A DNA stretch of 37,317 bases. It comes from Myxococcaceae bacterium. GTDB lineage: Bacteria > Myxococcota > Myxococcia > Myxococcales > Myxococcaceae. Position numbers and translations under genes: made by a program. Within the stretch, counting starts at the first letter, position 1. Each line of letters opens with the position of its first letter. The notes under the pieces were generated by a model. The model was given only the letters and a program-made list of their open reading frames with translations. It was not told the origin of the DNA and searched no databases. The DNA is taken from NCBI GenBank assembly GCA_003818285.1, contig RPRB01000025.1, positions 1 through 37,317 of the forward strand, in the 5' to 3' direction. Positions 19,412 through 37,317 of this stretch are shown in pieces.

Positions 19412-20656
19412 ATGAGGTCACAATCCTGGAAGACGTGTCTCGGAGTGCTCTGCCTGATGGCGGCGGGCACGGCGAACGCCGCGAAGATCTCCTTCAGCGA
19501 GAAGGGCTTCATCGACGTCGGCGGTGTGGTTCAGGCGCAGTACCGGATCGAGCAGGATGCGGCGGGTTCCGGGAAGGACCCCTCGAACGACTTCCTGCTC
19601 CGCCGGGCGCGCCTCGTCATCGGTGGCCAGTTCAACGAGAACATCGGGTTCTTCGTCGACACCGAGGTGTCCTATGGGACCGGCCCCGGAACTACCACCA
19701 ACGTCCCGGCCAACACCACTGCCACCAGCATCTACAACGCCATCTATGTCCTCGACGCGTTTGCCACCTACAAGTTCGGCAAGGAGCTCCTGCTCGACGC
19801 GGGGCTCATGCTGCTCCCGATGATGCACAACGGGCTGACCTCAGGCACGAGGTACGCCACGGTCAACAACTTCACCCAGTACTTCTCGCCGAACAGCCAG
19901 CGCGGGACCCGTGACGTGGGTATTGGAATCCGCGGCCTCCTCCTCGACGACCGGATCTACTACCGCATGGGCGTGTTCAACGGAGTCCAGACCCGCCCCA
20001 CCGTGACCGCGGCGCCGGTGCCACCGGCGACGGTGGGAGTGACCACCCAGGGCATCAATCCTGGTGACGCGCCGCGAGTCGCGGGCACGCTCCGCTTCAA
20101 CATCGCGGGCAAGGATGATGGGTACGCCTTCTGTCAGGTGTGCTTCGCCAAGAACGCCCAAGTGAGCATCGGGGTGGGCGCGGACTACCAGACGAACGCC
20201 TTCCGCGGCACCGCGCCGACCGGCCCAGGGACCTCCCAGACCACCGGGATGGGCAGCTGGACCACCGGCTTTGCGGACGTCTTCGCCGACATCCCCTTCT
20301 CCGAGAGCACCGAGCTTTCCTTCGACCTCGGCGTCACCAAGGTCTGGGCAGGCGAGAACACGCCCCAGTCCGGTCTTGCGGTCCAGGGCCTCCTCTCGTT
20401 CCGCTTCGGCATCATCGGGCCCTACTTCCAGATGGAGTGGTTCAACTCCGACGCCCAGTACGTCGGGCGGGGCAACACCACCGGTGACGTCACGACCTAC
20501 CGCGGGGGCCTGAGCCTGTACGTTCTCCAGCACACCTACAAGATCTCCGCGGAGATCGCCTTCCAGGACAAGGAGAAGGCAGGCGAGACCGTCGACGGGA
20601 CGCTCGTTCCGGCGAACCACTGGGTGCGCACGCTGCAGTTCCAGGCTGCCTTCTAG
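19412..20656 (+). CDS. Outer-membrane porin, phosphate-selective-porin-like (OprO/OprP family)
   Basis: The protein is 414 residues from ATG 19412, supported by GGAGAGGGGACGA just upstream. A signal peptide (CLGVLCLMAAGTANA) precedes a beta-barrel rich in alternating strands and ends in Phe, the usual outer-membrane insertion signal (LQFQAAF). Early strands FIDVGGVVQAQYRI and DFLLRRARLVIGGQFNENIGFFVDTE match the family of phosphate-selective porins O and P, which also includes many general or organic-anion porins. The arginine ladder of true phosphate porins cannot be confirmed. A Cys pair lies in AFCQVCFAK, probably in a loop. It is preceded by the GTTACC operator and followed by a terminator and the hydrolase gene, so it may take up the hydrolase products. 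Confidence 0.87.
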   Translation: MRSQSWKTCLGVLCLMAAGTANAAKISFSEKGFIDVGGVVQAQYRIEQDAAGSGKDPSNDFLLRRARLVIGGQFNENIGFFVDTEVSYGTGPGTTTNVPANTTATSIYNAIYVLDAFATYKFGKELLLDAGLMLLPMMHNGLTSGTRYATVNNFTQYFSPNSQRGTRDVGIGIRGLLLDDRIYYRMGVFNGVQTRPTVTAAPVPPATVGVTTQGINPGDAPRVAGTLRFNIAGKDDGYAFCQVCFAKNAQVSIGVGADYQTNAFRGTAPTGPGTSQTTGMGSWTTGFADVFADIPFSESTELSFDLGVTKVWAGENTPQSGLAVQGLLSFRFGIIGPYFQMEWFNSDAQYVGRGNTTGDVTTYRGGLSLYVLQHTYKISAEIAFQDKEKAGETVDGTLVPANHWVRTLQFQAAF

Positions 20657-20682
20657 GCAGATCTCGCCAGGACGGTTTCTGC

Positions 20683-20723
20683 GGGCGGCACGGGCTCACC
20701 GGCCCTGCCGCCCGTCGTCTTTT
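20683..20723 (+). terminator. Intrinsic terminator after porin gene
   Basis: GGGCGGCA (20683-20690) pairs with TGCCGCCC (20706-20713), with an inner GGGC/GCCC pairing. It is followed by GTCGTCTTTT. It lies 27 bases after the porin stop and separates that transcript from the hydrolase gene. Confidence 0.8.
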
Positions 20724-20740
20724 CACGGTCAGGTCGCTGA

Positions 20741-20770
20741 CCCGACCCGCGGCGTGCCCCGCGGGTCGGG
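20741..20770. promoter_or_regulatory. Perfect 12-bp hairpin upstream of hydrolase gene
   Basis: CCCGACCCGCGG (20741-20752) pairs perfectly with CCGCGGGTCGGG (20759-20770) around a six-base loop. It comes 18 bases after the porin terminator and 134 bases before the hydrolase start, with no T-tract. It may be a second termination barrier, an mRNA-stabilising 5' structure or an operator. Confidence 0.5.
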
Positions 20771-20904
20771 GCCGACGTCCGCCGGGCGTCATCCTCGAAT
20801 TCTTTGCTTTTCTGCTGTTGGGCCTCTCGCCGAAACTCCGCGGTTCCGCGAGGGGGGCTCCGGAGATGAGCTCCCCCTGCGCCCACACCGGAGGGACACT
20901 CGTC

Positions 20905-22416
20905 ATGCTACGCCGCTGCGTCCGCCGCACCGCCCTGGTCACGATGCTCGTGCCACTTGCCGCCTCGGCCCACGGAGACCGCTGTGAGCAGGTGCTCCGG
21001 CGGCTCGGAGACCGCCTGGTCGACGTCACCTGCACTCCGAGCGCTGACCTGACGACCAACAACCCGGCGACCACCCCGGCCAACAACTCGATCCCCGGGC
21101 TTCCGGCAGGGGCGTTCACCCCGGAGACCGACCGGACCGTCATCGCGCCGGACCCGCCGAACAAGACCCCGATCACGAAGGCGGTGCCGGGGATCCAGAT
21201 CAACGGGCGGATCGCCGGTGATCCGGAGGGGCAGGCGCGGTTCCTCCTCCGGCTCCCGGACGACTGGAACGGGCGGCTGGTGGTCGCCGGCGCCTCGGGG
21301 ACCCGGAGCGAGTTCAACGGCGACTGGGCCTGGAGCGACTACGTCATCCAGAAAGGCTACGCCTACGCCTCGCAGAACAAGGGCGTGCTCAACCTCCGTA
21401 TCGCCAACCCTTCCAGCCCCACCCCGCCGAACGAGCTCGCCTGCCGGCTGAACCCCGGTCCCGGCTCGCAGTTCTGGGTGAACTTCTACGACAACGATCC
21501 GGGTCAGCCCTTCGTCCGCTGGGCGCTGTTCATGGGGGAGGCGGCGCGGCTCGCGAAGCGCGGGGTCGAGGCTCGCTACGGCCGCGGCCCCAAGTTCACG
21601 TACGCGGTGGGGGCCTCGAACGGCGGCTATCAGGTGCGCCGGGCGGTGGAGCTCTTCCCCGAGCTCTTCGACGGCGGCGTGGACTGGGAAGGCACCGAGG
21701 TCGACCCGCGTGGGCCCAACCTCCTGACCGACCTTCCGCCGGCCGTCCTCAACTTCCCGGACTACGTCGCCTCGGCGTTGAACCCGGACAGCACCGCGGC
21801 AAGGAACATCCGCGGGGCGGGGTATCCGCCGGACATCGTGAACAGCCCGACCGTCTCGCTCTGGACCAGCTACTGGGCGCAGTTCTGGGAGGTCACCCAG
21901 TGCCAGTGGCAGAAGCGGCTCGACCCGACCTACGACACCTACGGCCAGGGGACCGGGACGTACAACTACTACGCCCGGCTCTCGGCCTCGGACGTGGGGG
22001 ATCAGGTGGCGAGCTTCGCGACCACCGGCCGTATCCAGCGCCCGCTGATCACGGTCGCCGGCACGATGGACGCGCTGCTTCCCATCGACCGGCACGCCCG
22101 CGCCTATGCCCGGAAGGTGGAGGCGGCGCTCGAGGACGACGACGGGCACGGCCTCGGCTGGTGGTGGCGCAAGCGTGACCGCCGGCCGGACTACCGCCTC
22201 TACGAGGTCCAGAACGGGAACCACATCGAGACCTTCAAGGTGACCTTCCCGCAGCTGGAGTACATCGAGCCGCACGCGCAGCGTGCCTTCGACCTGCTGG
22301 TGCAGCACGTGGAGCAGGGTCAGACGCTTCCGGCGAGCCAGTGCATCCCCCGGGGTGGCGCCATCTCGGGCTCGCCGGCGCAGGCGGGACACTGCCCGGA
22401 CCTGTTCGTGCCCTGA
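20905..22416 (+). CDS. Secreted alpha/beta-hydrolase, esterase/depolymerase-like
   Basis: The protein is 503 residues from ATG 20905, with GGAGGG nine bases upstream; the longer frame to 20818 is not supported. The signal peptide is TALVTMLVPLAASAHG. The nucleophile elbow GASNGGYQ holds the likely catalytic Ser. A late His in NGNHIE and an Asp in AGTMDALLPIDRHAR would complete the triad. The layout with a long insertion after the nucleophile resembles tannase/feruloyl-esterase and hydroxyalkanoate-oligomer hydrolase families, but the Cys-Ser motif of tannases is absent. It should cleave an ester or oligomer outside the inner membrane. It lies between a porin and a symporter that share an operator, and converges on the symporter with nine bases between stops. 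Confidence 0.82.
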   Translation: MLRRCVRRTALVTMLVPLAASAHGDRCEQVLRRLGDRLVDVTCTPSADLTTNNPATTPANNSIPGLPAGAFTPETDRTVIAPDPPNKTPITKAVPGIQINGRIAGDPEGQARFLLRLPDDWNGRLVVAGASGTRSEFNGDWAWSDYVIQKGYAYASQNKGVLNLRIANPSSPTPPNELACRLNPGPGSQFWVNFYDNDPGQPFVRWALFMGEAARLAKRGVEARYGRGPKFTYAVGASNGGYQVRRAVELFPELFDGGVDWEGTEVDPRGPNLLTDLPPAVLNFPDYVASALNPDSTAARNIRGAGYPPDIVNSPTVSLWTSYWAQFWEVTQCQWQKRLDPTYDTYGQGTGTYNYYARLSASDVGDQVASFATTGRIQRPLITVAGTMDALLPIDRHARAYARKVEAALEDDDGHGLGWWWRKRDRRPDYRLYEVQNGNHIETFKVTFPQLEYIEPHAQRAFDLLVQHVEQGQTLPASQCIPRGGAISGSPAQAGHCPDLFVP

Positions 22417-22425
22417 GAAACCCTT

Positions 22426-24060
22426 CTAGATCACGCCGATCTTGTGGTCCTTCGTCTCGCGCACGAAGAGCGAGCCGAGGACGAAGGTCATCGCGGCCAC
22501 GATGATCGGGTACCAGAGCCCGTAGTAGATGTCCCCCGTCGCGGCGACCAGCGCCGTGGCGGTGAGAGGGAGCATCCCTCCGAACCAGCCGTTGCCGATG
22601 TGGTACGGCAGCGACATGGACGTGTAGCGGATGCGCGTCGGGAACAGCTCCACCAGGAAGGCCGCGATGGGGCCGTACACCATGGTGACGTAGATCACCA
22701 TGATGACCAGGATCAGGAGCACCATCGGCCAGTTGAGACCTGCTGGATCGAACTTGGCCGGGTAGCCGTGCTGGGCGAGCGCGGCGGCGACCTTGGCCTC
22801 GTAGGCCTTGAGCGCGGCGGCGTCCATGTTGGCCGTCGCCGGGATCTCGATGTCGTTGATCTTCAAGTGCGGGGCCGCGCCGGGCGGGGCGTCGACGTTG
22901 GTGTAGCTCACGCTGCGCGAGGTCAGGATGTTCCGCACCCGGTCACAGTCGCTGTACCTGGTGGTGGGCAAGGCGAAGAGGTGCACCTGGCAGTCGCCTG
23001 CGGTCAGCGTCACCGTGTTGGAGGCGTTGAACTTCTCGAGAGACGGGTTGGAGAAGTGGGTGAGTGCCTTGAAGAGCGGGAAGTAGGTGAGCACGCCGAG
23101 GAGGCAGCCCAGCATCATGATCCACTTGCGGCCGATCCGGTCGGAGAGCCGGCCGAAGACGATGAAGAACGGGGTGCCGATCACCAGCGAGGCGGCGATC
23201 AGCAGATAGACCGTCTCGAAGGGGACCTTCAGCGTCGTCTGGAGGAAGAACAGCGCGTAGAACTGCCCCGTGTACCAGACCACGCCCTGCCCGGCGGTGG
23301 CGCCGAGGAGCGCGAGGATCACGATCTTGAGGTTGCTCCACTGGCCAAAGCTCTCGGACAGCGGGGCCTTGCTCCCCTTGCCCTCCTCCTTCATCCGGCG
23401 GAACATCGGCGATTCGTTCAGCTTGAGCCGGATGTAGATCGAGACGACCAGGAGGATGACCGAGAGGATGAAGGGGATGCGCCAGCCCCAGGTCCGGAAG
23501 GCCTCCACCGTCATCGTGTTCCGGCACATCCAGATGACCACCAGCGCGAGGAACAGACCCAGGGTGGCGGTGGTCTGGATCCAGGCCGTGTGGCCGCCGC
23601 GCTTGTCCTCCGGAGCGTGCTCGGCGACGTAGGTGGCTGCGCCGCCGTACTCGCCGCCGAGCGCCAGACCCTGCGCCAGGCGGAGCAGGAGCAGGAGCAG
23701 CGGGGCCAGCATCCCGATCGTGGAGAAGGTGGGCAGGAAGCCGACCAGCGCGGTCGACAGACCCATCACCGTGATGGTGACCAGGAAGGTGTATTTCCGG
23801 CCGACAAGGTCGCCGATGCGTCCGAAGAACAGCGCGCCGAAGGGCCGGACCAGGAACCCCGCCGCGTAGTTCACGAAGGCATTGAGCAGGGCCGTCGTCT
23901 GGTTCCCCGGAGGGAAGAACACCGCGGCAAAGAACGGTGCCAGCACGGCGTAGATGTAGAAGTCGTACCACTCGAAGACGGTTCCCAGGGACGACGCGAA
24001 GATGACGCGACGCTCTTCGCTCTTGTCGACCAAGGGCAGGGTGGACGCGGCGACGGCCAT
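22426..24060 (-). CDS. MFS transporter, metabolite:H+ symporter (MHS) family, with periplasmic insertion
   Basis: The protein is 544 residues from ATG 24060, with GGAGGCAGCTCG upstream. The start FASSLGTVFEWYDFYIYAVLAPFF, the loop motif GRIGDLVGRK, LRLAQGLALGGEYGGAATYVAEH and the second GRLSDRIGRK are typical of the MHS family (relatives carry citrate, ketoglutarate, shikimate or betaine). It is longer than the usual 430 or so because of a soluble insertion at about residues 342-450, between predicted TM9 and TM10 on the periplasmic side. The insertion has Cys357 and Cys372. Upstream are the GTTACC operator and an AT-rich TGCAA-repeat region. It probably imports a carboxylate released by the neighbouring hydrolase; this role is inferred. 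Confidence 0.92.
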   Translation of the reverse strand: MAVAASTLPLVDKSEERRVIFASSLGTVFEWYDFYIYAVLAPFFAAVFFPPGNQTTALLNAFVNYAAGFLVRPFGALFFGRIGDLVGRKYTFLVTITVMGLSTALVGFLPTFSTIGMLAPLLLLLLRLAQGLALGGEYGGAATYVAEHAPEDKRGGHTAWIQTTATLGLFLALVVIWMCRNTMTVEAFRTWGWRIPFILSVILLVVSIYIRLKLNESPMFRRMKEEGKGSKAPLSESFGQWSNLKIVILALLGATAGQGVVWYTGQFYALFFLQTTLKVPFETVYLLIAASLVIGTPFFIVFGRLSDRIGRKWIMMLGCLLGVLTYFPLFKALTHFSNPSLEKFNASNTVTLTAGDCQVHLFALPTTRYSDCDRVRNILTSRSVSYTNVDAPPGAAPHLKINDIEIPATANMDAAALKAYEAKVAAALAQHGYPAKFDPAGLNWPMVLLILVIMVIYVTMVYGPIAAFLVELFPTRIRYTSMSLPYHIGNGWFGGMLPLTATALVAATGDIYYGLWYPIIVAAMTFVLGSLFVRETKDHKIGVI

Positions 24061-24181
24061 CGAGCTGCCTCCTTCAGTGTCACGGGTAGGCAACCTCCGC
24101 ACCGCAACTTTTACGCCAAGGTGCATCGCCTCTGAATGGATGGAGGACCGTCAGGTCATTGACTCTGGGACCGCCGCGATT

Positions 24182-24208
24182 GGTAACACCTGCGTTACCG
24201 TCGGTAAC
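24182..24208 (-). promoter_or_regulatory. Three-part operator upstream of MFS transporter gene
   Basis: Read on the minus strand, GTTACC-GAC-GGTAAC is followed after six bases by GTTACC. It has the same order and orientation relative to its gene as the element before the porin (19221-19246). It lies about 120 bases upstream of the transporter start. Likely bound by the same, unidentified regulator. Confidence 0.7.
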
Positions 24209-24224
24209 ACGGTGGAGCAGTGCT

Positions 24225-24294
24225 GATGCAACTACGATGCAAAAGAGTAAAAGTGCAATGAAGCTGCAGAGACGAAAAAGTGCAATCAATTGCA
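24225..24294. promoter_or_regulatory. AT-rich TGCAA repeat cluster upstream of MFS transporter
   Basis: GATGCAA occurs twice (24225-24231, 24236-24242) and AAAAGTGCAAT twice (24249-24259, 24276-24286). A palindrome TGCAAT-CA-ATTGCA lies at 24281-24294. The base composition is much more AT-rich than the surroundings. This is likely the promoter and a second regulator's binding region for the transporter gene. Confidence 0.5.
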
Positions 24295-24330
24295 GGGATG
24301 GAAAGGAGGGTTCGGCCTCCTTCCTGCCTC

Positions 24331-25659
24331 TCAGCCCAGCAGGGTGCGGCTCACCACGTAGAAGAGCGGCAGGAGCGTCACCGCGCTGTAGCCCAGGTAG
24401 CGGAAGAACCCCGGCATCCGCACGCCGGCATGCTCGGCGATGGCCTTCACCATGAAGTTGGGGCCGTTGCCGATGTACGTGTTCGCGCCCATCAACACCG
24501 AGCCCAGCGAGATGGCGGTGAGGAGCCTCTCGCCGCGCTCGTGCGTCACCAGAGCTCCCAGGTCGGCCGCGTCGGTCCCCACCTGACCGCTCGCCGCCGA
24601 GGCGAAGGCAAGGTACGTGGGGGCGTTGTCGAGGAACGAAGAGAGCGCGCCGCTGGCCCAGAAGTAGTGCTGCGGCTCGTGAAGCGCGAGCTCGCCTCCA
24701 TACGCGTTGAGGATCGCCAGCGGGGGGATCATCGTGGCGAAGATTCCGGCGAAGAGGACCGCCACCTCGGCGATCGGGTGCCACCTGAAGTCGTTCTCTG
24801 CGCGGAGCTTCCGCGGCGTGGTCTGCCAGCACAGCGCCGCCACCAGCAGCATCGCCCCGGTCTGGGCGAGGACCGGTAGCCGCAAGGTCCCCGAGACCAG
24901 AAGCACCGCGATGAGCGCCAGCAGGTAGCCCAGGCTCCCCCATCCGGCGATGTGGATCGGCACCTGGTGCGCGACGGCGATCTCGTCGAGGTCGCCCGGC
25001 CGTTCCAGATCCTCGCGGCGGAAGACGGTGGAATCCACGATGAAGAAGATGATCAGCAGCGCCGCGTTCACGGCCAGCCAGGCCTTCCAGAGGGTCAGGG
25101 GCCAGCTGAACGGCACGCCCCGGAGGTAGCCCAAGAAGAGGGGCGGATCGCCCAGCGGGGTGAGGAGGCCTCCGGCGTTGGCCACCACGAAGATGAAGAA
25201 GACCACCACGTGGGCCTTGCGGCGGCGGACGGAGTTGGCCCGGAGGAGGGGACGGATCAGCACCATCGAGGCGCCGGTGGTCCCGATGAACGAGGCCAGC
25301 ACCGCGCCGCTCCCGAGCAGGACCGCGTTCACTCCCGGGGTCCCCGCTAGCGTGCCGCGGATGACGACGCCACCGGCGATGACGAACAGCGCCCCCAGGA
25401 GGACGATGAAGGCCAGGTACTCGCTGGCCGTGTGGAGCAATGCTCCGGTGTCGAGCAGTGCGGTCCAGAGCGCCACCGGTGCTCCGAGCACCACGCTGAG
25501 GAGAGCCTTGTTGCGGTTCCTCTCCCAGAACCCGCCCGCGACCAGCGGCAGCACGGCGATGGCCAGGAGCATCAGGGCAAAGGGGACGACGCTCCAGGCG
25601 GGGAAGCGGCGGCCGAGCTCCGAGGTCGAGGTGACTGCCACGACAAGCGGACCGTGCAT
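24331..25659 (-). CDS. Ion transporter, CitMHS/NhaD-like (putative Na+/H+ antiporter or citrate carrier)
   Basis: The protein is 442 residues with about 12 membrane segments. The motifs SFIGTTGASMVLIRPLLRAN, NAGGLLTPLGDPPLFLGYL and FLDNAPTYLAF are the paired-repeat signatures of the ion-transporter superfamily members NhaD and CitMHS. The first includes the GTTGAS loop and the last the D-N-A-P re-entrant loop. ANTYIGNGPNFMVKAIAE is near the end. Such proteins exchange Na+ for H+ or carry metal-citrate; the substrate cannot be decided by eye. ATG 25659 has only a weak ribosome site. It lies 270 bases upstream of the MFS gene on the same strand, and diverges from the DUF294 pair with a 93-base gap. 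Confidence 0.88.
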   Translation of the reverse strand: MHGPLVVAVTSTSELGRRFPAWSVVPFALMLLAIAVLPLVAGGFWERNRNKALLSVVLGAPVALWTALLDTGALLHTASEYLAFIVLLGALFVIAGGVVIRGTLAGTPGVNAVLLGSGAVLASFIGTTGASMVLIRPLLRANSVRRRKAHVVVFFIFVVANAGGLLTPLGDPPLFLGYLRGVPFSWPLTLWKAWLAVNAALLIIFFIVDSTVFRREDLERPGDLDEIAVAHQVPIHIAGWGSLGYLLALIAVLLVSGTLRLPVLAQTGAMLLVAALCWQTTPRKLRAENDFRWHPIAEVAVLFAGIFATMIPPLAILNAYGGELALHEPQHYFWASGALSSFLDNAPTYLAFASAASGQVGTDAADLGALVTHERGERLLTAISLGSVLMGANTYIGNGPNFMVKAIAEHAGVRMPGFFRYLGYSAVTLLPLFYVVSRTLLG

Positions 25660-25752: not shown

Positions 25753-27219
25753 ATGCCGGACGCTCGCCTCGAAACCGGGCTTCACCGCCTGCGGGCCAGG
25801 GAGCTGGTGACCCGGCCCCCGTTCCTCACCGTCCCCACCGACGCGGTCGCCGCGGTGGCCCGCGCGATGACGGAGCGCCGCATCGGCTCGGCGGTGGTCG
25901 CCTCCGGCCGAACGCCGTTGGGCATCGTGACCGATCGCGACCTCCGCTCCAAGGTCGTCGCCGGCGGCTACCCGACCTCGGGGCCGGTGTCGGGCATCAT
26001 GTCCGCACCGCTGAAGACCGTCCGCGCCGAGGACTGGGCCTTCACCGCGCTCCTGGAGATGACCCGGTCCGCCATCCACCATCTGGGGGTGACCGACGGC
26101 GAAGGTCAGCTCCTCGGGATCATCTCCAGCAATGACTTCCTGGCCCTGGAGAGAGGGCATCCGGCCTCGCTGGTCAAGGAGCTGGACTCCGCGACCTCCC
26201 TCGAGGGAGTTCGTGCCGCGGGAGCGCGCCTCCCCGCCCTGGTGCGCGGGCTCCTCCGCGCGGGTCTGCCGGCCATCGAGGTGACGCAGCTGGTCGCCGA
26301 GGTCCACGACCGCACCTTGCAGCGGGTGGTGCAGCTCGCCGAGGAGGGCCTGGCCAGCGACGGGCTCGGTCGCCCGCCGGGGCCGTTTGCCCTGGTGGTC
26401 GGAGGAAGCGAGGGTCGGCGGGAGCAGACCATGGTCACCGATCAGGACAACGGGCTGGTCCACGCCTCCGTCGCGGAGGAGGTCGCAGGGTCGGCAGGTG
26501 ACTACTTCACTCGTCTGTCCGAGGGGATTGCCTCCCGGCTCGCCGCGCTCGGTGTTCCGCCCTGTCCGGGCGGCTTCATGGCGGTGAACCCCCGGTGGCG
26601 TCTCGACATCGGGCGGTGGAAGGAGCGCTTTCTCCAGTGGATGGACCAGCCGGAGGGCCACGCCCTGGTCGAGGCGAGCGTGTTCTTCGACTGGCGGTTC
26701 GTCGCCGGTGACCAGGCGGCTGCGAGCGACGTCTGGAGCTGGGCGTGCACCGAGGCTCCCCGGCACGCGCCCTTCCACCAGGCCCTGGCGCGCGAGGCCC
26801 TGCGCCGGGATCCGCCGCTCGGTCTCTTCGGCCGTTTCCGGGTGGCCCATCGCGGCCCGCATCGGGGGTGCTTCGACGTCAAGGCGCTGGGGCTCTTCCC
26901 CCTGGTGCACGGGATGAGGACCTACGCGGTCCAGCTCGGGCTGAAGGACACCGGGACGTCAGCCCGCATCGCCGGCGCGGTGGAGGCGGGGGCCCTGGGC
27001 TCGGGGGAGGGCCGCAACCTGAGTCACGCTCTGGAAACGCTGCTCCGCACGCGCCTCGATGCAGAGCTGGGCGCGACGATGGAAGGACATCCTCCCTCGA
27101 GCCAGGTCGACCCCTCCCGTCTCGACGCCATCGATCGGGCCGCCCTCCACGAGGCATTCCGGACCATTCGCCTGTTCCAGCAGGGACTGGCCGACCGGTT
27201 CCGCACCCAGCTCTCCTGA
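25753..27219 (+). CDS. CBS-pair/DUF294 nucleotidyltransferase, paralogue 1
   Basis: The protein is 488 residues from ATG 25753. Two CBS domains (residues about 18-135) include GIVTDRDLRSKVVAGG and would bind an adenosyl ligand. A nucleotidyltransferase domain of the GlnD-related DUF294 type follows, with GGSEGRREQTMVTDQDN (217-233): the GS pair and the D-x-D metal ligands are intact. The C-terminal substrate-associated domain has FDVKALGLFPLVHGMRTYAV, typical of the family. Relatives usually begin with a cyclic-nucleotide-binding domain; that is missing here. In other bacteria such genes neighbour a DnaQ-type exonuclease and a VC_2705 symporter, as here. The next gene is a near copy starting two bases after this stop. 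The transferred nucleotide and target are unknown. Confidence 0.92.
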   Translation: MPDARLETGLHRLRARELVTRPPFLTVPTDAVAAVARAMTERRIGSAVVASGRTPLGIVTDRDLRSKVVAGGYPTSGPVSGIMSAPLKTVRAEDWAFTALLEMTRSAIHHLGVTDGEGQLLGIISSNDFLALERGHPASLVKELDSATSLEGVRAAGARLPALVRGLLRAGLPAIEVTQLVAEVHDRTLQRVVQLAEEGLASDGLGRPPGPFALVVGGSEGRREQTMVTDQDNGLVHASVAEEVAGSAGDYFTRLSEGIASRLAALGVPPCPGGFMAVNPRWRLDIGRWKERFLQWMDQPEGHALVEASVFFDWRFVAGDQAAASDVWSWACTEAPRHAPFHQALAREALRRDPPLGLFGRFRVAHRGPHRGCFDVKALGLFPLVHGMRTYAVQLGLKDTGTSARIAGAVEAGALGSGEGRNLSHALETLLRTRLDAELGATMEGHPPSSQVDPSRLDAIDRAALHEAFRTIRLFQQGLADRFRTQLS

Positions 27220-27220
27220 T

Positions 27221-28684
27221 ATGCCCGAAGCTCGCCTCCAGACTTGGCTGCACCGCCTCCGGACCCGCGAGCTGCTGAGTCGCCCGCTGGTGACCGCAGC
27301 CCCGACCGAGGCCGTGGCGGCCGTGGCCAGGGCGATGACCGAGCGACACACCGGCGCGGCGGTGGTCGCGAACAAAGGAACCCCGATCGGGATCGTCACC
27401 GACCGGGACCTTCGCTCCAAGGTCGTCGCCGGCGGGTATCCACCCTCGGGGCCGGTTTCGGGGATCATGTCCGCCCCGGTGAAAACGGTGCGCGGCGAGG
27501 ACTGGGCCTTCACCGCACTCCGGGAGATGACCCGCACGGCGCTCCACCACCTGGCGGTGGTCGACGGGGACGGTCAGCTGATCGGCGTGCTCTTCACCGA
27601 CGACTTCGTTCCGCTCGAAGCGGGGCATCCGGCCTCGCTCACCCAGGCGGTGGACGCCGCGGCCTCCCTGGACGGGATTCGCGCCGCCGAGTCGCGGCTC
27701 CCTCCGCTGGTTCGGGGCCTGGTCCGCGCCGGCCTCCCGGCCATCGAGGTGACCGAGCTCGTTGCCGAGGTCCACAGCCGGACCCTGCGCCGGGTGACGC
27801 AGCTTGCCGAGCAAGCGCTGGCTGCTGACGGGCACGGTCGACCGCCGGTGCCGTATGCCCTGGTGGTGGGAGGAAGCGAAGGCCGCCGCGAGCAAACCAT
27901 GGTCACCGACCAGGACAACGGGCTGGTGTACGCCCTCGGCGCGGACGACGGAGCGGCCAGGGAGTACTTCACTCGACTGGCCGAGGGCATCGCCCAGAGA
28001 CTCGCGGCACTGGCCGTTCCCCACTGTCCTGGGAGTTTCATGGCGGCCAACCCCCGGTGGCGCCTCGACGTCGGGCGGTGGAAGGAGCGGTTTCTCGGGT
28101 GGATGGAACGGCCGGAGGGCGAGGCTCTGGTCGAGGCGAGCGTGTTCTTCGACTGGCGGTTCGTCGCCGGCGAGGAGGCGGTGGCGAGCGAAGTGTGGAC
28201 CTGGGCGTGCACGCAGGCTCCCCGGTACGCGCCCTTCCATCAGGGTCTGGCGCGCGAAGCCCTGCGCCGGGATCCCCCTCTCGGGCCCTTCGGCCGTTTT
28301 CGGGTGGCCCGCCATGGCCCCCATCGGGGGCGCTTCGACGTCAAGGCGCTGGGGCTCTTCCCTCTGGTGCACGGGATGCGGGCCTACGCGGTGCAGCTTG
28401 GCCTGAAGGACACCGGCACCTCCGCCCGTGTCGCCGGCGCGGTGGACGCCGGGGCCCTGGGCGCGGAGGAGGGCCGCGACCTGCGTCACGCCCTGGAGAC
28501 GCTGCTCCGGGCGCGCCTCGATACCGAGCTGGGCGCGGCAATGGAAGGCCGGCCTCCCTCCACCCAGGTCGATCCTTCCCGCCTCGACGCCATCGACCGC
28601 GCCGCCCTCCGCCAGGCCTTCCGGACCATTCGCTTGTTCCAGCGGGGACTGGCCGACCGGTTCCGCACCCAGCTCTCCTGGTGA
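27221..28684 (+). CDS. CBS-pair/DUF294 nucleotidyltransferase, paralogue 2
   Basis: The protein is 487 residues, nearly colinear with paralogue 1: by eye only a two-residue gap after the active site (ALGADDGAAREYF against the longer loop) and one extra Trp at the end. The CBS pair and the active-site motif GGSEGRREQTMVTDQDN are fully kept, so both copies should be catalytically competent. Differences concentrate in the CBS region (for example VLFTDDFVPLEAG against IISSNDFLALERG) and around the loop after the active site. That pattern suggests different ligands with a shared reaction. ATG follows the upstream stop by one base, so translation is coupled. It converges on the exonuclease-sensor gene, 20 bases between stops. 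Confidence 0.92.
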   Translation: MPEARLQTWLHRLRTRELLSRPLVTAAPTEAVAAVARAMTERHTGAAVVANKGTPIGIVTDRDLRSKVVAGGYPPSGPVSGIMSAPVKTVRGEDWAFTALREMTRTALHHLAVVDGDGQLIGVLFTDDFVPLEAGHPASLTQAVDAAASLDGIRAAESRLPPLVRGLVRAGLPAIEVTELVAEVHSRTLRRVTQLAEQALAADGHGRPPVPYALVVGGSEGRREQTMVTDQDNGLVYALGADDGAAREYFTRLAEGIAQRLAALAVPHCPGSFMAANPRWRLDVGRWKERFLGWMERPEGEALVEASVFFDWRFVAGEEAVASEVWTWACTQAPRYAPFHQGLAREALRRDPPLGPFGRFRVARHGPHRGRFDVKALGLFPLVHGMRAYAVQLGLKDTGTSARVAGAVDAGALGAEEGRDLRHALETLLRARLDTELGAAMEGRPPSTQVDPSRLDAIDRAALRQAFRTIRLFQRGLADRFRTQLSW

Positions 28685-30897: not shown

Positions 30898-31268
30898 CAC
30901 GCGTCGCCGAGCAACGCCTTCACCGTGGCCACCAGCTCCTTCGTGGCGAACGGCTTCGTGACGTAGGAATCGGCGCCGAGGGCGAGCCCCTTCTCGGCGT
31001 CGATGTCACGCCCCTTCGCGGTCAGCATCACCACCTTGATCCCCGCCAGGGCGGGCGTCTCGCGGACGACCTGGCAGATCTCGTAGCCGTTCCGCTTCGG
31101 CATCATCACGTCGAGCAGGACCAGGTCGGGACGGAAGTCGCCGAGGATCTGGAGGGCCGTCTCACCGTCGGCCGCGGTCCGCACCTCGTACCCCTCGAAC
31201 TCCATGAGGAACTGGAGTGACATGACGATGTTCGGCTCGTCGTCGGCGATCAGGATTCTCTTCTTCAT
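30897..31268 (-). CDS. Single-domain response regulator (CheY-like)
   Basis: The protein is 123 residues, a lone receiver. It has acidic Asp9-Asp10-Glu11, phospho-Asp53 in VLLDVMMPKRNGYE, Thr in VVMLTAKG and Lys in YVTKPF. All residues needed for phosphorylation are kept. There is no output domain, unlike CrbR/ErdR partners of symporter-kinases, which have a LuxR-type helix-turn-helix. ATGA overlap with the upstream symporter-kinase and TGATG overlap with the downstream exonuclease-sensor place it in one coupled operon. It may act by binding the exonuclease-sensor or by relaying phosphate. Confidence 0.95.
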   Translation of the reverse strand: MKKRILIADDEPNIVMSLQFLMEFEGYEVRTAADGETALQILGDFRPDLVLLDVMMPKRNGYEICQVVRETPALAGIKVVMLTAKGRDIDAEKGLALGADSYVTKPFATKELVATVKALLGDA

Positions 31269-34102
31269 CGTGGCTCCGTTCCGGTGGCACCGGCCTCCGT
31301 CCCGGGCGCGCCGAGCGCAGCGGCGCGATCGTCCGGCACGTCGCCACCGCCCACCTCCGCCTGACGGCGGAGCGGGATGACGAACGAGAAGGTGGCTCCT
31401 CTCCCGGGCTCGCTCTCAACCCACAGGCGCCCCCCGAAGTGCTGGATGATCTCGCGGCTGATCGGGAGCCCCAGGCCGGTTCCCCTCGGCTTGGTGGTGA
31501 GGGTGTCGCCCCCCTGGCGAAACTTCTCGAAGATGAGCTCCTGGTCCTTCGCCGCGATCCCCATCCCGTTGTCGCGCACGTCGACGCGGACCACCCCCGG
31601 CTCCGCGCGCAGCGAGATGGAGACCCGGCCGCCCGGGTCGGCGCAGAACTTGGCAGCGTTCGAGAGGAGGTTGATCACCACCTGCACGAGGCGGTCCCGA
31701 TCGGCGAGGATCGGTGGGACCTCCTCCGGCACGTCGACCTCCAGCGTGGCCGCCTTCTCGGCGAAGAGCTGGCTCGTCGCCGCCACGGCGTGCTCGACCA
31801 CCTCGCGCGGGCTCACCACCGCGATCCGCCAATCGACCCGGCCGGCCTCGATCTTCGAGAGGTCGAGTACCTGGTTGATCAGGCGGGTGAGCCGCTCCGC
31901 CTCCTGGATGACGACGGACAGGTACTTGGTGCGGGTGGCGGCATCGAGCTGGGGATGGTCGTGGAGAATCTCGGAGAACGAGCGGATGGAGGTGAGCGGG
32001 GTGCGGAGCTCGTGCGAGACGTGGGAGACGAAGTCGTCCTTCATCCGGTCCAGCTCCTTCAGCTGCTCGTTCGCGCTGCTGAGATCCGCGTACGCGCTCG
32101 TGAGCTCCCGCGACGTCTTCTCCAGCTCCCGGCTGTACTTCATGATCTGCGAGGCCTCGTCGAGGATGGACATCACCTCGTCCATGGTGAGCGGGGCCTC
32201 CTTCACGACCGACGCCACCATCGCGTGGGCCGACGCTCCGCCGATGGCGCCGGCCAGCTTCGTCTCGGCGAACTGGATGAGGTTCGCGTCGGCCTCGACC
32301 TCCCACGCCGACCGCAGGCGACGATCGCGCGCGTAGCCCTCCAGCACGTCGTCGGCCTTGTCTGCCCCGAGGAAGCGCGAGAGAAGCGCGCGCAGCTCCT
32401 GGACCGACACGCCACCCCGCCAGAAGAGCGATCCGGTGCCGGCGGCGGAGTGCTTGAACACGTCCACGAAAAGCGTCGCCTGGCTGTGCTCGACCGCGCT
32501 CTGGGTGGTCGAGAGCGAGAACGCGACGTAGGCGCCCACGTTGGCGAGCATGGACCAGATCATCCCGTGGGTGATCTGGTCGAGGCCGGTGAGCCCGAAG
32601 AGCTGCAGGGGCCTCAGGGCCTCGATCCCGAACGGCCCCGCCTCGACGATGGACATGGGCACCCAGCCCGACTTCGCGAACGCCGGGACGAGGAGGGTGT
32701 AGAGCCAGACCAGGAATCCGGCGGAGAGGCCGGCGAGGGCGCCGGCGCGCGTACCGCCCTTCCAGAAGAGCCCACCCAGGCAGGCGGGGGCGAACTGCGC
32801 CACCGCGGCGAAGGAGATGAGGCCGATCGACACCAGCGCGTAGGCCTCCCCCGCGATCCGGAAGTAGAGGTAGCCGAGGAGCAGCATCACCAGGATCGCT
32901 CCGCGCCGGATGCCCAGCAGGAGTCCGGTGAGATTCTTCCGCTCGTTCAGCCGCAGCGCGGGCCAGCGGAGCAGCAGGGGCATGGCGAGGTCGTTGCAGA
33001 CCATGGTGGAGAGCGCGATCGTCTCGACGATCACCATTCCGGTCGCCGCGGAGAGCCCTCCGATGAAGACCAGCAGCCCGAGCCCGTTCTGGCCCCTGGA
33101 AAGCGGCAGGGTGAGCACGTACGTGTCCGGATCGACCGGGGTGCCGGCGAAGTGGACCATCCCGCCGAAGGCAATCGCCGGCACGAAGAGGTTGATGACC
33201 AGCATGTAGAGCGGGAACAGCCAGATCGCGGTCTTCACGTGGTTGACGTCGACGTTCTCGACCACCGCGACCTGGCACTGACGGGGCAGGAACATGATCG
33301 CCAGCATGGCGAAGAAGGTCGCGGAGTAGAGCGAGGCCAGGACGCCCGTTTGCCCATCGCCCGTTCCCCCGATGACGAAGAGGGCCTGGACCCCGGGCAG
33401 CTCGCGGGCGCGGGTGAAGACGTCCCGGAACCCGTCGAACATCCCCCAGGTCACGAACCCGCCCACCGCCAGGAAGGCGACGAGCTTCACCAGCGACTCG
33501 AAGGCGATCGCCGCGACCATCCCCTCGTGCCGCTCCGAGGCGTCGAGGTGGCGGGTCCCGAACATGATGGTGAAGGCGGCGAGGATGAGCGCCGCGTACA
33601 GCGCGGTGTCGCTGAGGAACGGCCCGCCGTGGCCCGCGCCGACGACCTCCACGTCGTGCGAGTGGACGATGGTGAAGGCGGTGGAGATCGCCTTCAGCTG
33701 CAGCGAGATGTAGGGCAGGATCCCGATCACCGCGATGACGGTGACGAGCCCCGCGACGAGGGCGCTCTTGCCGTACCGGGAGGCGATGAAGTCTGCCAGC
33801 GACGTGATCCGGTGGACCTTGCTGATGAGGATGATCTTCCGCAGCAGGATCCACCACAGGAGGCACATGATCGTCGGGCCGATGTAGATGGGCAGGAACC
33901 CGATGCCGGTGGAGACGGCGCGCCCGACCGAGCCGTAGAAAGTCCACGCGGTCGCGTAGACCGCGAGCGACAGTGAGTAGATGTACGGGTTCGCGATGAG
34001 ACTCCGCCCGCGGTCGGCGCGCCGGTCGGCGTAGTAGGCGATCGCGAAGAGGAGCCCCAGGTAGGCGCAGGCGACGGAGATGACGACCCAGTCCCGGAGC
34101 AC
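31265..34102 (-). CDS. Sodium:solute symporter-histidine kinase (CrbS/MxtR/CbrA type)
   Basis: The protein is 945 residues from GTG 34102, with GAGG overlapping the stop of the small gene before it. Residues 1 to about 530 are an SLC5-type transporter domain (ISVACAYLGLLFAIAYYADRRA, TAWTFYGSVGRA, SLADFIASRYGKS). A STAC-like linker (about 555-640) follows, then a coiled coil and a kinase core. His697 lies in HVSHELRTPLTSI, the N box is NLLSNAAKF, then DNGMGIAAKD and GTGLGLPISREII. There is no receiver at the C-terminus. Related CrbS and MxtR control acetate use, and CbrA controls histidine uptake; the substrate here is probably a small carboxylate, by context. The last 35 residues are a disordered Ala/Gly/Glu tail. 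Confidence 0.94.
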   Translation of the reverse strand: MLRDWVVISVACAYLGLLFAIAYYADRRADRGRSLIANPYIYSLSLAVYATAWTFYGSVGRAVSTGIGFLPIYIGPTIMCLLWWILLRKIILISKVHRITSLADFIASRYGKSALVAGLVTVIAVIGILPYISLQLKAISTAFTIVHSHDVEVVGAGHGGPFLSDTALYAALILAAFTIMFGTRHLDASERHEGMVAAIAFESLVKLVAFLAVGGFVTWGMFDGFRDVFTRARELPGVQALFVIGGTGDGQTGVLASLYSATFFAMLAIMFLPRQCQVAVVENVDVNHVKTAIWLFPLYMLVINLFVPAIAFGGMVHFAGTPVDPDTYVLTLPLSRGQNGLGLLVFIGGLSAATGMVIVETIALSTMVCNDLAMPLLLRWPALRLNERKNLTGLLLGIRRGAILVMLLLGYLYFRIAGEAYALVSIGLISFAAVAQFAPACLGGLFWKGGTRAGALAGLSAGFLVWLYTLLVPAFAKSGWVPMSIVEAGPFGIEALRPLQLFGLTGLDQITHGMIWSMLANVGAYVAFSLSTTQSAVEHSQATLFVDVFKHSAAGTGSLFWRGGVSVQELRALLSRFLGADKADDVLEGYARDRRLRSAWEVEADANLIQFAETKLAGAIGGASAHAMVASVVKEAPLTMDEVMSILDEASQIMKYSRELEKTSRELTSAYADLSSANEQLKELDRMKDDFVSHVSHELRTPLTSIRSFSEILHDHPQLDAATRTKYLSVVIQEAERLTRLINQVLDLSKIEAGRVDWRIAVVSPREVVEHAVAATSQLFAEKAATLEVDVPEEVPPILADRDRLVQVVINLLSNAAKFCADPGGRVSISLRAEPGVVRVDVRDNGMGIAAKDQELIFEKFRQGGDTLTTKPRGTGLGLPISREIIQHFGGRLWVESEPGRGATFSFVIPLRRQAEVGGGDVPDDRAAALGAPGTEAGATGTEPR

Positions 34103-34111
34103 GTGTGCGCC

Positions 34112-34369
34112 TCAGCGTGGCGGCGGCGGCCGTCGCGCCCCTCCTTGCCCGCCGCGGAGGGTTCCGTCGTCGGCTCCGCTCACCTGGAGGATCAGGGCGG
34201 CTCCCGAGATCACCACCGCCCAGGCGACGAAGAGGTACAGGTAGAGCTTCGGAATCCCCAGGACCAGCGTGGGGGCGTTGAACATCTGGAGGAGCGGGTA
34301 GTTGAAGAGGAGCAGACCGAACAAGGCCAGGGCGACCAGGCGTTCGTTCCTGACATGGGTCCGCTTCAA
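34112..34369 (-). CDS. Small two-helix membrane protein upstream of symporter-kinase
   Basis: The protein is 85 residues if translation starts at TTG 34369, which has GGGAG at suitable spacing. Two hydrophobic helices (LVALALFGLLLF and LYLYLFVAWAVVISGAALILQV) are joined by NYPLLQMFNAPTLVLGIPK, followed by a cytosolic tail of Gly, Arg and Pro. The family is not firmly recognised. The stop is nine bases before the kinase start, so it is a likely accessory subunit of the symporter-kinase. An in-frame GTG further upstream is an alternative start. A tiny leader ORF ends on its TTG. Confidence 0.75.
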   Translation of the reverse strand: MKRTHVRNERLVALALFGLLLFNYPLLQMFNAPTLVLGIPKLYLYLFVAWAVVISGAALILQVSGADDGTLRGGQGGARRPPPPR

Positions 34370-34994: not shown

Positions 34995-36917
34995 TTAGTG
35001 GGCGAATTCCGCCGAGGAGACGGTCGCCTTCGGGTAGCGGACGCTGCTGACGAGCTCCTGGACCCGCTCGGGAGGCGGAGCGGTCAGGAGTGAGACGACG
35101 TAGATGGTGACGAAGCCGAGCGGGATCCCGAAGACCCCCGAGGCCACGGTGGCCGTGCCCCACCAGGTCATTCCGTAGAAGCGCGAGCCGACCATGTACA
35201 GGAGCGTGGTTGCCAGGCCGATGACCATGCCGGCCACGGCCCCTGGGCGATTCGCCCGCTTCCACCAGATGCCCATCACCAGCGCCGGGAAGAAGCTCGC
35301 CGCGGCGAGACTGAAGGCCCAGGCCACCAGCTCGACGATGATCGCCAGCCGGAAGGTGGCGACGCTCGCCGCGATCAGCGCGGTGACGATGAGGAAGATT
35401 TTGGTGATGGTGAGCCGACGGATCAGCGGCGCCTTCGGGTCGATGATCTTGTAGTAGAGGTCGTGGGAGATGGCGTTGGCGATGGTCAGGAGCAGCCCGT
35501 CGGCGGTGGAGAGCGCCGCGGCGAGGCCGCCGGCCATCACCAGCCCGGTGATCACGAAGGGCAGGCCGGCGATCTCCGGCATCGCCAGCACCACGAAATC
35601 GGAGCTCTTGATCACGAAGTCCGCGAGCTGCACCACCCCGTCCCCGAGCTTGTCCACCACGTCGAAGAGGCCGGCGGGTTTCCACAGCGTCACCCACCGC
35701 GGAAGGTCGGCGATGTGCGTTCCGACCAGCCGGGTGTAGACCACGAACCGGGCGAAGGCGGCGTAGGCCGGGGCCGTGAAGTACAGGAGGAAGATGAAGA
35801 ACAGGCCCCAGGCGACGGATCTTCGCGCTTCCTTGACCGAGGGGGTCGTGTAGTAGCGGGTCAGGATGTGGGGCAATCCGGCCGTGCCCACCATCAAGCA
35901 GAAGGTGAGCGCGAGGAAGTTCCACATCCCGATCCCCTTGGGCACCAGCAGGTAGTTGGCGACCGTCGCCCCGGGCGCTGCGGGGGGCTTGGCCTGCGCT
36001 GCCGCCGTCTTCTGCTGGGCGCTCAGCTTCTCCCGCTCGGCGTCCGACAGCGCCGGGTCTTTCAGCTTCGCCGCGGCCGCGTCGGCCTCCTGTTTCCACA
36101 GTGCTCGCGTGGCCGCCTCCTTCGGATCGTTGGTCACCTGGATCGCCGCCGCGCTGTTACGCTGCAGCAGCTGGCCGTAGACGAACTGGGGGAAGGGGAA
36201 GGTGAACAGCTGCCAGCTCAGCACCACCACCGGGACCAGGTAGCTGATGATCAGGATGATGTACTGCGCCACCTGGGTCCAGGTGACGGAGCGCATGCCC
36301 CCGAGGACCGAGCAGAAGAGCACGCCCACCAGTCCCACGAAGACCCCGACGTTGAAGTTCAGGCCCAGGAAGCGGCTGACGATCAGACCCACGCCGGTCA
36401 CCTGGGCGATGAGATAGGTGAAGGAGCAGAGAACGGCGGCGAGCACACCCACCAGCCGCGGCGCGGTCCCGCCGTAGCGGCCCCCCAGGAAGTCAGGGAT
36501 GGTGTAGGCCCCGAACTGCCTGAGGTAAGGACCAAGGAACACCGCCAGGAGCACGTACCCGCCGGTCCAGCCCATCACGTACGCCAGCCCGCTGAACCCC
36601 TGGACCGACAGCGCCCCGGCCATCGAGATGAAGGACGCCGCCGACATCCAGTCGGACCCGGTGGCCATGCCGTTGTAGAGCGCAGGCACACCCCGGCCGG
36701 CCACGTAGTACTGGTCCGAGTCCGAGGTACGGGTGATGACCCCGATGACGATGTAGATGCCGAGGCTCAGGGCCATGAACAGCCAGCCGATCCATCGGTT
36801 GGGAAGGCCGAGGAACTGCTCGGCGAGCCCGATGAGGACCGTGACGCCGAGGAAGGCGACGGTGTAGAGGCCGAAGATCTTGCCCAGGCTCCACCGGAAC
36901 GGTTGCTGGGTAGCCAT
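34995..36917 (-). CDS. Sodium:solute symporter, VC_2705 subfamily (acetate/carboxylate type)
   Basis: The protein is 640 residues from ATG 36917, which overlaps the stop of the DUF4212 gene (TGATG). It is an SLC5-family carrier with about 13 helices: DQYYVAGRGVPALYNGMATG, SDWMSAASFISMAGAL, GAYTIPDFLGGRYGG, GTAGLPHILTRYYT and AALSTADGLLLTIANAISHD are hallmarks. A Lys/Ala-rich hydrophilic insertion at about residues 230-300 (KEAATRALWKQEADAAAAKL and following) separates central helices and is typical of the VC_2705 subgroup, which always pairs with a DUF4212 subunit. The relatives near CrbS are linked to acetate uptake. The substrate here is inferred only. Confidence 0.93.
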   Translation of the reverse strand: MATQQPFRWSLGKIFGLYTVAFLGVTVLIGLAEQFLGLPNRWIGWLFMALSLGIYIVIGVITRTSDSDQYYVAGRGVPALYNGMATGSDWMSAASFISMAGALSVQGFSGLAYVMGWTGGYVLLAVFLGPYLRQFGAYTIPDFLGGRYGGTAPRLVGVLAAVLCSFTYLIAQVTGVGLIVSRFLGLNFNVGVFVGLVGVLFCSVLGGMRSVTWTQVAQYIILIISYLVPVVVLSWQLFTFPFPQFVYGQLLQRNSAAAIQVTNDPKEAATRALWKQEADAAAAKLKDPALSDAEREKLSAQQKTAAAQAKPPAAPGATVANYLLVPKGIGMWNFLALTFCLMVGTAGLPHILTRYYTTPSVKEARRSVAWGLFFIFLLYFTAPAYAAFARFVVYTRLVGTHIADLPRWVTLWKPAGLFDVVDKLGDGVVQLADFVIKSSDFVVLAMPEIAGLPFVITGLVMAGGLAAALSTADGLLLTIANAISHDLYYKIIDPKAPLIRRLTITKIFLIVTALIAASVATFRLAIIVELVAWAFSLAAASFFPALVMGIWWKRANRPGAVAGMVIGLATTLLYMVGSRFYGMTWWGTATVASGVFGIPLGFVTIYVVSLLTAPPPERVQELVSSVRYPKATVSSAEFAH

Positions 36918-37189
36918 CACGCAGCCCCTTCATCGAGCCCGAACTCGTGGTCCTTCTTGTTCATCAGTCGCGCGTACACCGCGATCTCGATGACGAAGAC
37001 CGCCAGGGAGCCCTGGGCCGCCACGTAGTAGCCGAGCGGGAACCCGAGGACGGTGACCCTGTTGAGCTCGCCTGCGAGCAGCCCACCCAGGACGTACCCG
37101 AAGAGGGCCCAGATCACGAGCAGGATGACCGTGAGGCGGATGTTGTATCGCCAGTATTCGTTCTTCTGTGTTTCGGTGAGCTCGGCCAT
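36917..37189 (-). CDS. DUF4212 symporter small subunit
   Basis: The protein is 90 residues from ATG 37189; the frame to 37237 has no better start. It has two membrane helices (LTVILLVIWALFGYVLGGLLAG and YYVAAQGSLAVFVIEIAVYAR) with EYWRYNIRLT before the first and MNKKDHEFGLDE at the end. This matches the DUF4212 family, the small subunit of VC_2705-type symporters (analogous to the DUF485 partner of ActP). The stop overlaps the symporter ATG, so the two are coupled. It is the first gene of the operon. Its promoter should lie in 37190-37317, where nothing definite was read. Confidence 0.92.
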   Translation of the reverse strand: MAELTETQKNEYWRYNIRLTVILLVIWALFGYVLGGLLAGELNRVTVLGFPLGYYVAAQGSLAVFVIEIAVYARLMNKKDHEFGLDEGAA

Positions 37190-37317
37190 GGGGTCCGGTC
37201 TCCGGGGGCGAAACGGGGGTTGGCTCCGCGCACCCACACGGCAAGACGCGTACCCATCGACTGCACCGGCGAACTCATGGACGCGACTGGGATTGCGTAT
37301 GCCGGGGTGCTACGAAA

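Follow-up and report, generated by a model that had tools for sequence, protein, structure and literature searches.

A diverged tandem pair of CBS-DUF294 genes beside a kinase, receiver and membrane exonuclease cluster in a Myxococcaceae bacterium

Results

The window analysed here is a stretch of 37,317 nucleotides from a Myxococcaceae bacterium (assembly GCA_003818285.1, contig RPRB01000025.1), and this study concerns two adjacent DUF294 genes in it, copy A and copy B, each encoding a protein with two CBS domains (CBS1 and CBS2) followed by DUF294 and DUF294_C (Table 1). The copies are identical at 381 of 488 aligned protein positions (78%) and at 81.6% of nucleotides. DUF294 (PF03445) was matched with 140.7 and 139.3 bits in the two copies against a cut-off of 21, and DUF294_C (PF10335) with 142.3 and 140.8 bits against a cut-off of 22.5. 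The GGSEGRREQTMVTDQDN stretch is the same in both, as is the motif GS-x-x-R-x-E-Q...TDQD, whose G218, S219, R222, E224, Q225, T/S229, D230, Q231 and D232 columns are kept in 95 to 96 of 96 relatives (position 229 being T or S among them). No cyclic-nucleotide-binding domain was found N-terminally in either copy by Pfam at E<=0.001, where only CBS, DUF294 and DUF294_C matched.

A sequence-only reading of this DNA had described an in-frame duplication of two colinear open reading frames (ORFs), one base apart and sharing an intact active site, inside an operon-like unit. The two frames, the single base and the active site were borne out at exactly the coordinates in Table 1. However, the start-to-start distance is 1468 nucleotides, or 3x489+1, so copy B lies in another frame than copy A, each copy having its own stop and start. 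The pair also forms its own two-gene unit rather than part of a longer one, being divergent from the upstream transporter gene and convergent with the downstream exonuclease gene. No Shine-Dalgarno-like sequence was seen by eye upstream of copy B or of copy A, which together with the one-base junction makes it likely that translation of copy B is coupled to that of copy A. A promoter and terminator scan gave no promoter-like sites and one terminator-like site, against 0.8 in shuffles.

Table 1. Features of the DUF294 pair and of its surroundings, in window positions (aa, amino acids)
Feature	Position	Strand	Basis or remark
Copy A, CBS-CBS-DUF294-DUF294_C protein, 488 aa	25753..27219	+	ORF and Pfam
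Copy B, CBS-CBS-DUF294-DUF294_C protein, 487 aa	27221..28684	+	ORF and Pfam; 78% identical to copy A
Stop/start junction TGA-T-ATG	27217..27223	+	Sequence; single base T at 27220 between copies
Copy A CBS2 ligand motif GIISSND (Ser at residue 125)	26116..26136	+	Alignment
Copy B CBS2 motif GVLFTDD (Phe at residue 125)	27584..27604	+	Alignment
Copy A catalytic motif, residues 218-233 (GSEGRREQTMVTDQDN)	26404..26451	+	Alignment columns
Copy B catalytic motif, same as in copy A	27872..27919	+	Alignment columns
Copy A 3' part from about residue 275, putative gene-conversion tract	26575..27219	+	Reduced silent and replacement divergence
Matching 3' part of copy B (putative conversion partner)	28037..28684	+	Reduced silent and replacement divergence
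CitMHS_2 (citrate-type) transporter gene	24331-25659	divergent from pair	Pfam
Membrane HAMP-like protein with C-terminal DEDD 3'-5' exonuclease (RNase_T), 731 aa	28705..30900	-	Convergent with copy B
Stand-alone CheY-like receiver, 123 aa	30897..31268	-	Domain search
Histidine kinase with SLC5/sodium-symporter-like N-terminal part	31265..34102	-	Domain search and profile match
Small 80-aa membrane protein ORF directly before kinase	34112..34354	-	Same-place matches in several relatives
VC_2705-family sodium/solute symporter, large subunit	34995..36920	-	TIGR03648, 719.7 bits
Symporter small subunit (DUF4212)	36917..37237	-	PF13937 / TIGR03647

The two copies are adjacent, in the same orientation and mutually closest among the sequences found. 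They are sisters with support of 100/100 in a tree of 78 rows (20 of 98 rows being omitted as near-identical, short or long-branch), and a 70-row tree groups them likewise. They are the only PF03445 matches in the window genome (5.77 Mb, 502 contigs). In family f1 (96 genomes, window genome included) a DUF294 relative at E<=1e-30 was found in the window genome and in G004 only (2/96), and the genus mate G001 (82% complete) gave no DUF294 match at this threshold. A search of 195 genomes of the phylum, in which only matches at E<=1e-60 were listed, gave a best other listed match of 39% identity. In an alignment with 96 gathered relatives the highest identity to either copy was 37%; these relatives are the 96 of 111 profile matches that were retained, those of low score, of short span or contained in another being dropped, and a separate sequence set went without the short fragment L053 and sequences contained in others. 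Among plasmids 61 records matched, all below 60% identity (35.8% for the best-ranked of the 10 listed), and a genome-contig collection scanned with two peptides only gave 29 loci at <=38% identity, which is a weak negative. Copies A and B are a lineage-specific tandem duplication of one regulator gene, and we regard this as practically certain. The tree did not place the copies in distant clades, a placement that had been named beforehand as the refutation of a tandem duplication.

The duplication had also been called recent, which did not hold. Silent divergence (dS) between the copies is 0.49 by NG86 and 0.96 by YN00, a level similar to that seen between DUF294 genes of different species in genus g36, which belongs to the same order; one example, G059/G146, has 74% identity and fourfold-site differences of 0.41 and 0.33. 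The duplication is not very young, with a silent divergence of about 0.5-1. The stem of the pair measures about 1.1 changes per site (1.09 in the 78-row tree) and the end branches 0.086 and 0.19; no close relative of the window genome was found, and the pair stands on a long branch. The sequence upstream of copy A (GCGCTCTCAACGATGCC) is similar to the sequence where copy A ends and copy B begins (AGCTCTCCTGATATGCC), pointing, as a suggestion only, to a short GCTCTC homology at the duplication junction. That the contig might be a contaminant was considered and rejected: GC content fits, and the tetranucleotide profile of the window correlates at 0.852 with seven pieces of its own genome against 0.80 with seven pieces of family f5, a weak test in that the own piece L116 correlates better with f5 and five own pieces below 2 kb were left unused.

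The distribution of differences between the copies (105 of 486 aligned residues) was compared by domain. Residues differ at 20/80 positions in CBS1, 17/60 in CBS2, 40/160 in the transferase domain, 8/38 in the linker and 20/148 in DUF294_C. The CBS pair (37/140, 26%) and the transferase (25%) are therefore alike (Fisher p 0.79), and the ratio of replacement to silent divergence (dN/dS, or omega) is 0.27 for CBS and 0.26 for transferase, although the 50-residue block 101-150, mostly CBS2, has the lowest identity of all blocks (58%). Differences at fourfold-degenerate sites are 0.46, 0.46, 0.44, 0.21 and 0.24 in CBS1, CBS2, transferase, linker and DUF294_C. A change-point scan placed a silent step at residue 275-277, inside the transferase domain. 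The permutation p value was 0.0002 when every same-residue codon was counted and 0.0012 when fourfold sites alone were. dN/dS is 0.163/0.622 (0.26) over residues 1-300 and 0.075/0.319 (0.24) over residues 301-488. The claim that differences are concentrated in the CBS part thus fails in residue counts and in omega alike, the break near 275 affecting silent sites too. Uniform divergence over all domains had been named as evidence against that claim; it is what was found between CBS and transferase, while DUF294_C is lower. Both copies are under purifying selection, with omega about 0.26.

Because silent and replacement differences both halve after about residue 275 while omega stays flat, the pattern is most simply read as gene conversion of the 3' part, and homogenisation of the last 40% or so of the copies by conversion appears quite probable. 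The 5'/3' silent ratio of the pair, 2.07, was the highest of 190 DUF294 pairs of 62-93% identity (window pair included), the next being 1.47, with the breakpoint taken from the window pair itself. With a free breakpoint the change-point statistic of the pair, 20.95, was again highest, and none of 26 disjoint control pairs, among which L004/L006 is not included, exceeded 9.3. One observation that weighs against conversion is that L004/L006 reaches 20.4 at a different breakpoint, so the step could have another cause. L004 and L006 are DUF294 genes of two species, and their strong silent step at residue ~93 is possibly a recombination event of its own.

The AlphaFold models have a mean predicted local distance difference test score (pLDDT) of 88.0 for copy A and 87.2 for copy B. 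Over residues 132-484 copy A resembles the N-terminal as well as the C-terminal domain of GlnE, the glutamine synthetase adenylyltransferase of E. coli; the copy A model aligned with 1v4a at Z 23.9 and a root-mean-square deviation (rmsd) of 3.0 over 311 residues, and with 3k7d at Z 23.6 and rmsd 3.1 over 308. This is a GlnE-type fold, a transferase with a helical C-terminal domain, though fold alone is no proof of function. The CBS part of copy A matches 2rif, a CBS pair bound to adenosine monophosphate (AMP), at Z 18.3 and rmsd 1.8 over 122 residues, and pairs bound to S-adenosylmethionine match too. The GlnE-like fold together with the motif makes nucleotidyl transfer to a protein under CBS control the most likely activity, and we put the chance that the copies nucleotidylate a protein at slightly better than even.

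Residue 125, in the CBS2 ligand motif, is Ser in copy A and Phe in copy B. Among 83 CBS-bearing relatives it is S in 35, T in 27 and E in 14, and F in none. It aligns with S in solved CBS pairs, including 2rif, and this position presumably contacts the ribose of bound nucleotides. Since CBS and transferase diverged uniformly, two ligand specificities, as had been proposed, are not readable from the divergence pattern; the more general idea of functional asymmetry is still favoured by the Phe of copy B and by the CBS-less partners in other genomes described below. The substitution makes it possible, at somewhat less than even odds, that the copies respond differently to ligand, while a mixed oligomer of A and B would be doubtful.

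The genes downstream of the pair lie on the minus strand in an operon-like row of symporter subunits, 80-aa ORF, kinase, receiver and exonuclease, with four-base overlaps between the kinase and receiver genes and between the receiver and exonuclease genes. The symporter belongs to the VC_2705 family (TIGR03648, 719.7 bits against a cut-off of 320.75; TIGR03647, 93 against 26.05) and falls short of the ActP equivalog TIGR02711 (140.5 against 1099.25 bits). Kinase residues 314-555 matched the symporter profile, over part of the domain only, with probability 94.9 and E 4.8e-8, and the kinase matched the single window symporter with probability 91.9; controls with the major facilitator superfamily (MFS) protein, the citrate-type transporter and the exonuclease gave 0.1-0.4. 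By this profile match an SLC5-like domain is fused to a histidine kinase, while Pfam SSF gave no match in the kinase at E<=1. The HAMP match of the exonuclease, at 21.8 bits, is below the cut-off of 25. Besides the exonuclease, RNase_T (PF00929) has no other match in the window genome, whose completeness is stated as 100%, and no separate DnaQ-type match was found there with the PF00929 model. The small 80-aa ORF has no Pfam family at E<=1, and matches to it lie before kinase homologues in L155, L157, L177, L179, L057, L089 and L091; its position resembles that of CbrX. Upstream of the pair, positions 19286-25659 hold genes for a porin-like protein, a 3-hydroxybutyrate (3HB)-oligomer-hydrolase-like protein, an MFS metabolite symporter and the citrate-type transporter. 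The 3HB-oligomer-hydrolase-like gene and the MFS metabolite symporter would fit a carboxylate-use region, and a homologue of the MFS protein (708 bits) adjoins the exonuclease gene in L167.

Of 399 genomes from the order of Ramlibacter genome G195, which we take to be Burkholderiales, 28 have a full-length homologue of the exonuclease; 3 of the 29 listed matches are partial. The flanks were examined for 27 loci of these 29 matches (26 plus L057), those of G367 and G320 being outside the set. On the stretches at hand, DUF294 accompanied the exonuclease in 22/27 loci, the kinase in 22/27 and a symporter match of at least 350 bits in 15/27; two of the five loci lacking DUF294 (L160, L161) are on contigs below 10 kb. 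Seven of the 27 loci (L163, L164, L172, L173, L174, L176 and the Ramlibacter locus L057) have two DUF294 genes, one of them CBS-less in each case. These short copies begin where the CBS pair would end and keep the transferase motif. Between their match and the exonuclease match lie 11-76 bases, or an overlap of about 12 in L163, which leaves no room for a CBS pair between the two. Six of the CBS-less copies form one clade (100/99), while that of Ramlibacter pairs with the full copy of the same locus (100/99); a tree constrained to keep all seven in one clade, a group named after the tree was seen, was rejected (approximately unbiased test, p-AU 0.0085). CBS loss in the two-DUF294 clusters occurred independently at least two times. 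With the window pair included, the two-gene state appears to have arisen separately at least three times, with gain of a distinct paralogue as an alternative to duplication in place for the six-row clade.

Related arrangements were seen in other genomes. In G057, which is of the order of the window genome, three DUF294 genes are adjacent (L085:5533-10320), the third being CBS-less; an exonuclease match is present, and there is no kinase match at E<=1e-10 within 16 kb. Two more DUF294 copies of G057 (L086) are adjacent to each other, and near them lies a gene closely homologous to the window symporter (1084 bits). Kinase, receiver and DUF294 genes are directly adjacent in L089, L091 and L099 (f5), so that receiver and transferase may plausibly act as partners. 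L165 has the convergent layout of the window, DUF294 against exonuclease, receiver and kinase, with a single DUF294 of another clade. The window kinase (67%) and exonuclease (49%) had their highest identities among the rows compared with G329 (L154, of the Ramlibacter order), and among 193 genomes of the window's own phylum the only other exonuclease match at E<=1e-60 was in G004. This suggests transfer of the kinase and exonuclease genes between phyla. However, in the 78-row tree the window DUF294 pair does not group with the DUF294 of G329, so cluster and pair may have different histories.

Discussion

The data presented here suggest that the pair encodes a GlnE-like, protein-nucleotidylating regulator of carboxylate uptake that was duplicated and is diverging in sensor input, a reading to which we give a probability of about 0.55. 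The duplication itself is well established and its partial conversion well supported, while the function is only plausibly assigned. In the model proposed here, whose steps beyond the presence of the genes are inferred, the kinase would sense an external carboxylate and phosphorylate the CheY-like receiver. Lacking a DNA-binding part, the receiver would pass its signal to a protein, with the DUF294 transferase as the likeliest candidate. This enzyme would read the energy state of the cell via CBS-bound adenylates and add a nucleotide, AMP or uridine monophosphate, to a target that is perhaps the symporter, the kinase or the exonuclease. Copies A and B would be made together by translational coupling, and the pair would work in the output branch of an SLC5-type kinase, CheY and membrane exonuclease system, where it would adjust carboxylate uptake through the adjacent symporters. 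The altered CBS2 site of copy B could give two sensor settings, as two homo-oligomers or one mixed oligomer, so that the response is widened or split.

Several observations speak against this reading. The pair is on the opposite strand from the kinase row, and co-regulation with the kinase is only putative. It falls outside the main 29-row clade (100/100) of cluster DUF294 proteins. Its own branch is long, and so are those of the two lineages next to it (98/84), a placement flagged as a meeting of long branches. DUF294 genes that lack CBS are also found with no second DUF294 match in the stretch (L054, L056, L058, L059, L181), so CBS loss is not tied to pairing. Deletion of pp_0354 in P. putida gave no growth phenotype (PMC9927547) and a mutant of pflu5625 had no phenotype (PMC5715377). 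Lastly, the accessible portions of PMC9927547, PMC5715377, PMC3710099, PMC4209131 and PMC3412718 report no activity for any DUF294 protein, only the term "putative nucleotidyltransferase".

The alternative that survives best, although we consider it less likely than not, is plain redundancy or dosage, in which the copies are interchangeable, have the same task and stay similar through gene conversion. It agrees with the intact motifs of both copies, their low omega and the 3' homogenisation. It also agrees with the even pace of change, which counts against the main reading as well: branch lengths suggest that copy B is the faster, but informative sites are 37 vs 34 (34 uninformative), and the proposal of a faster copy B was dropped. 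However, the copies still differ at more than a hundred residues, including the CBS2 ligand position, and 7 of 27 related clusters retain two structurally different DUF294 genes. It is less likely again that the pair is unrelated to the kinase cluster and only by chance convergent with it. The opposite strand and the long-branch lineage outside the main cluster clade are in favour of this explanation, but DUF294 accompanies the homologous exonuclease in most of the loci examined, once (L165) convergent as here, and the sole RNase_T match and the sole DUF294 matches of the genome lie together in this place. That the pair serves the neighbouring cluster seems a little more probable than the contrary.

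The model of the sequence-only reading, in which adaptive divergence specific to CBS drove the sensors apart with the transferase conserved, is now rather improbable. The low identity of block 101-150 and the Phe of copy B, seen in 0/83 relatives, are in its favour, but CBS and transferase have the same share of changed residues and the same omega, and the step near 275 includes silent sites. This case is a caution that domain-specific selection can be misread from the uneven divergence of tandem copies if silent sites are ignored. Finally, it is extremely unlikely that two anciently separate DUF294 genes came to lie side by side with no duplication: tandems with distant members do exist, the three- and two-gene rows of G057 (L085, L086) being unresolved in the 78-row tree, but two of the three L085 copies group in the quick 70-row tree with an SH-like approximate likelihood ratio test (SH-aLRT) value of 95, and the 78% identity and full sister support of A and B compare with at most 37% to any of the 96 aligned relatives.

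A broader proposal, which we consider unlikely but worth stating, is that SLC5-type kinase, CheY and membrane exonuclease clusters repeatedly evolve a two-gene DUF294 module, in which a CBS-keeping transferase is joined by a partner with its sensor altered, as in copy B, or missing, as at the seven loci. Such a module might act as a mixed enzyme or as a writer and eraser pair comparable to the two fused GlnE halves, signalling by protein nucleotidylation instead of transcription. The seven loci resemble the window in having two DUF294 genes in one such cluster, but one copy is CBS-less there whereas both keep the CBS pair here, and the origins are separate. Paralogues that differ at a ligand-site residue are natural experiments on CBS control of the transferase and on its target, and separately arisen pairs with sensor loss in one type of neighbourhood are further natural experiments on the same questions.

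GlnE shares with the window copies the fold of residues 132-484 and a GS...DxD-type transferase motif. In GlnE two transferase units are joined in one chain and there is no CBS pair, whereas in the window the two transferases are separate proteins and both carry a CBS pair. DUF294_C has been grouped with the C-terminal domains of GlnD and GlnE (PMC3710099). DUF294 was also found in an expanded protein family of Chlamydiae (PMC4209131), and an operon that contains a DUF294 gene together with dnaQ is mentioned in a table note on Bacilli (PMC3412718). A literature search that covered few subscription papers turned up nothing on this cluster or on the duplication of DUF294 within it.

The closest published parallels are from Pseudomonas. 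In P. putida, MxtR/ErdR controls an operon of pp_0354, which encodes a CBS protein, and pp_0353, which encodes an RNase_T protein and matters for growth on pyruvate (PMC9927547). Pflu5625 of P. fluorescens, with cAMP-binding, CBS and nucleotidyltransferase domains, is discussed with CrbS/R (PMC5715377). These targets of MxtR/ErdR (= CrbS/CrbR) share with the window a CBS-bearing signalling protein, an RNase_T partner and a link to an SLC5-type kinase, and the P. aeruginosa counterpart lies next to actP, as symporters lie near the window pair (PMC9927547, PMC5715377). However, the window has two copies, neither with a cyclic-nucleotide-binding domain found, and compared with the pp_0353 system its exonuclease is a 731-aa membrane protein and its receiver is stand-alone rather than LuxR-type. 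SLC5/STAC kinases such as CrbS, CbrA and RpuS have, like the window kinase, a symporter-like membrane part fused to a histidine kinase, and for CrbR and RpuR they are paired with LuxR-family regulators (PMC9100948). The window kinase is instead accompanied by a receiver of 123 aa that consists of the receiver domain only.

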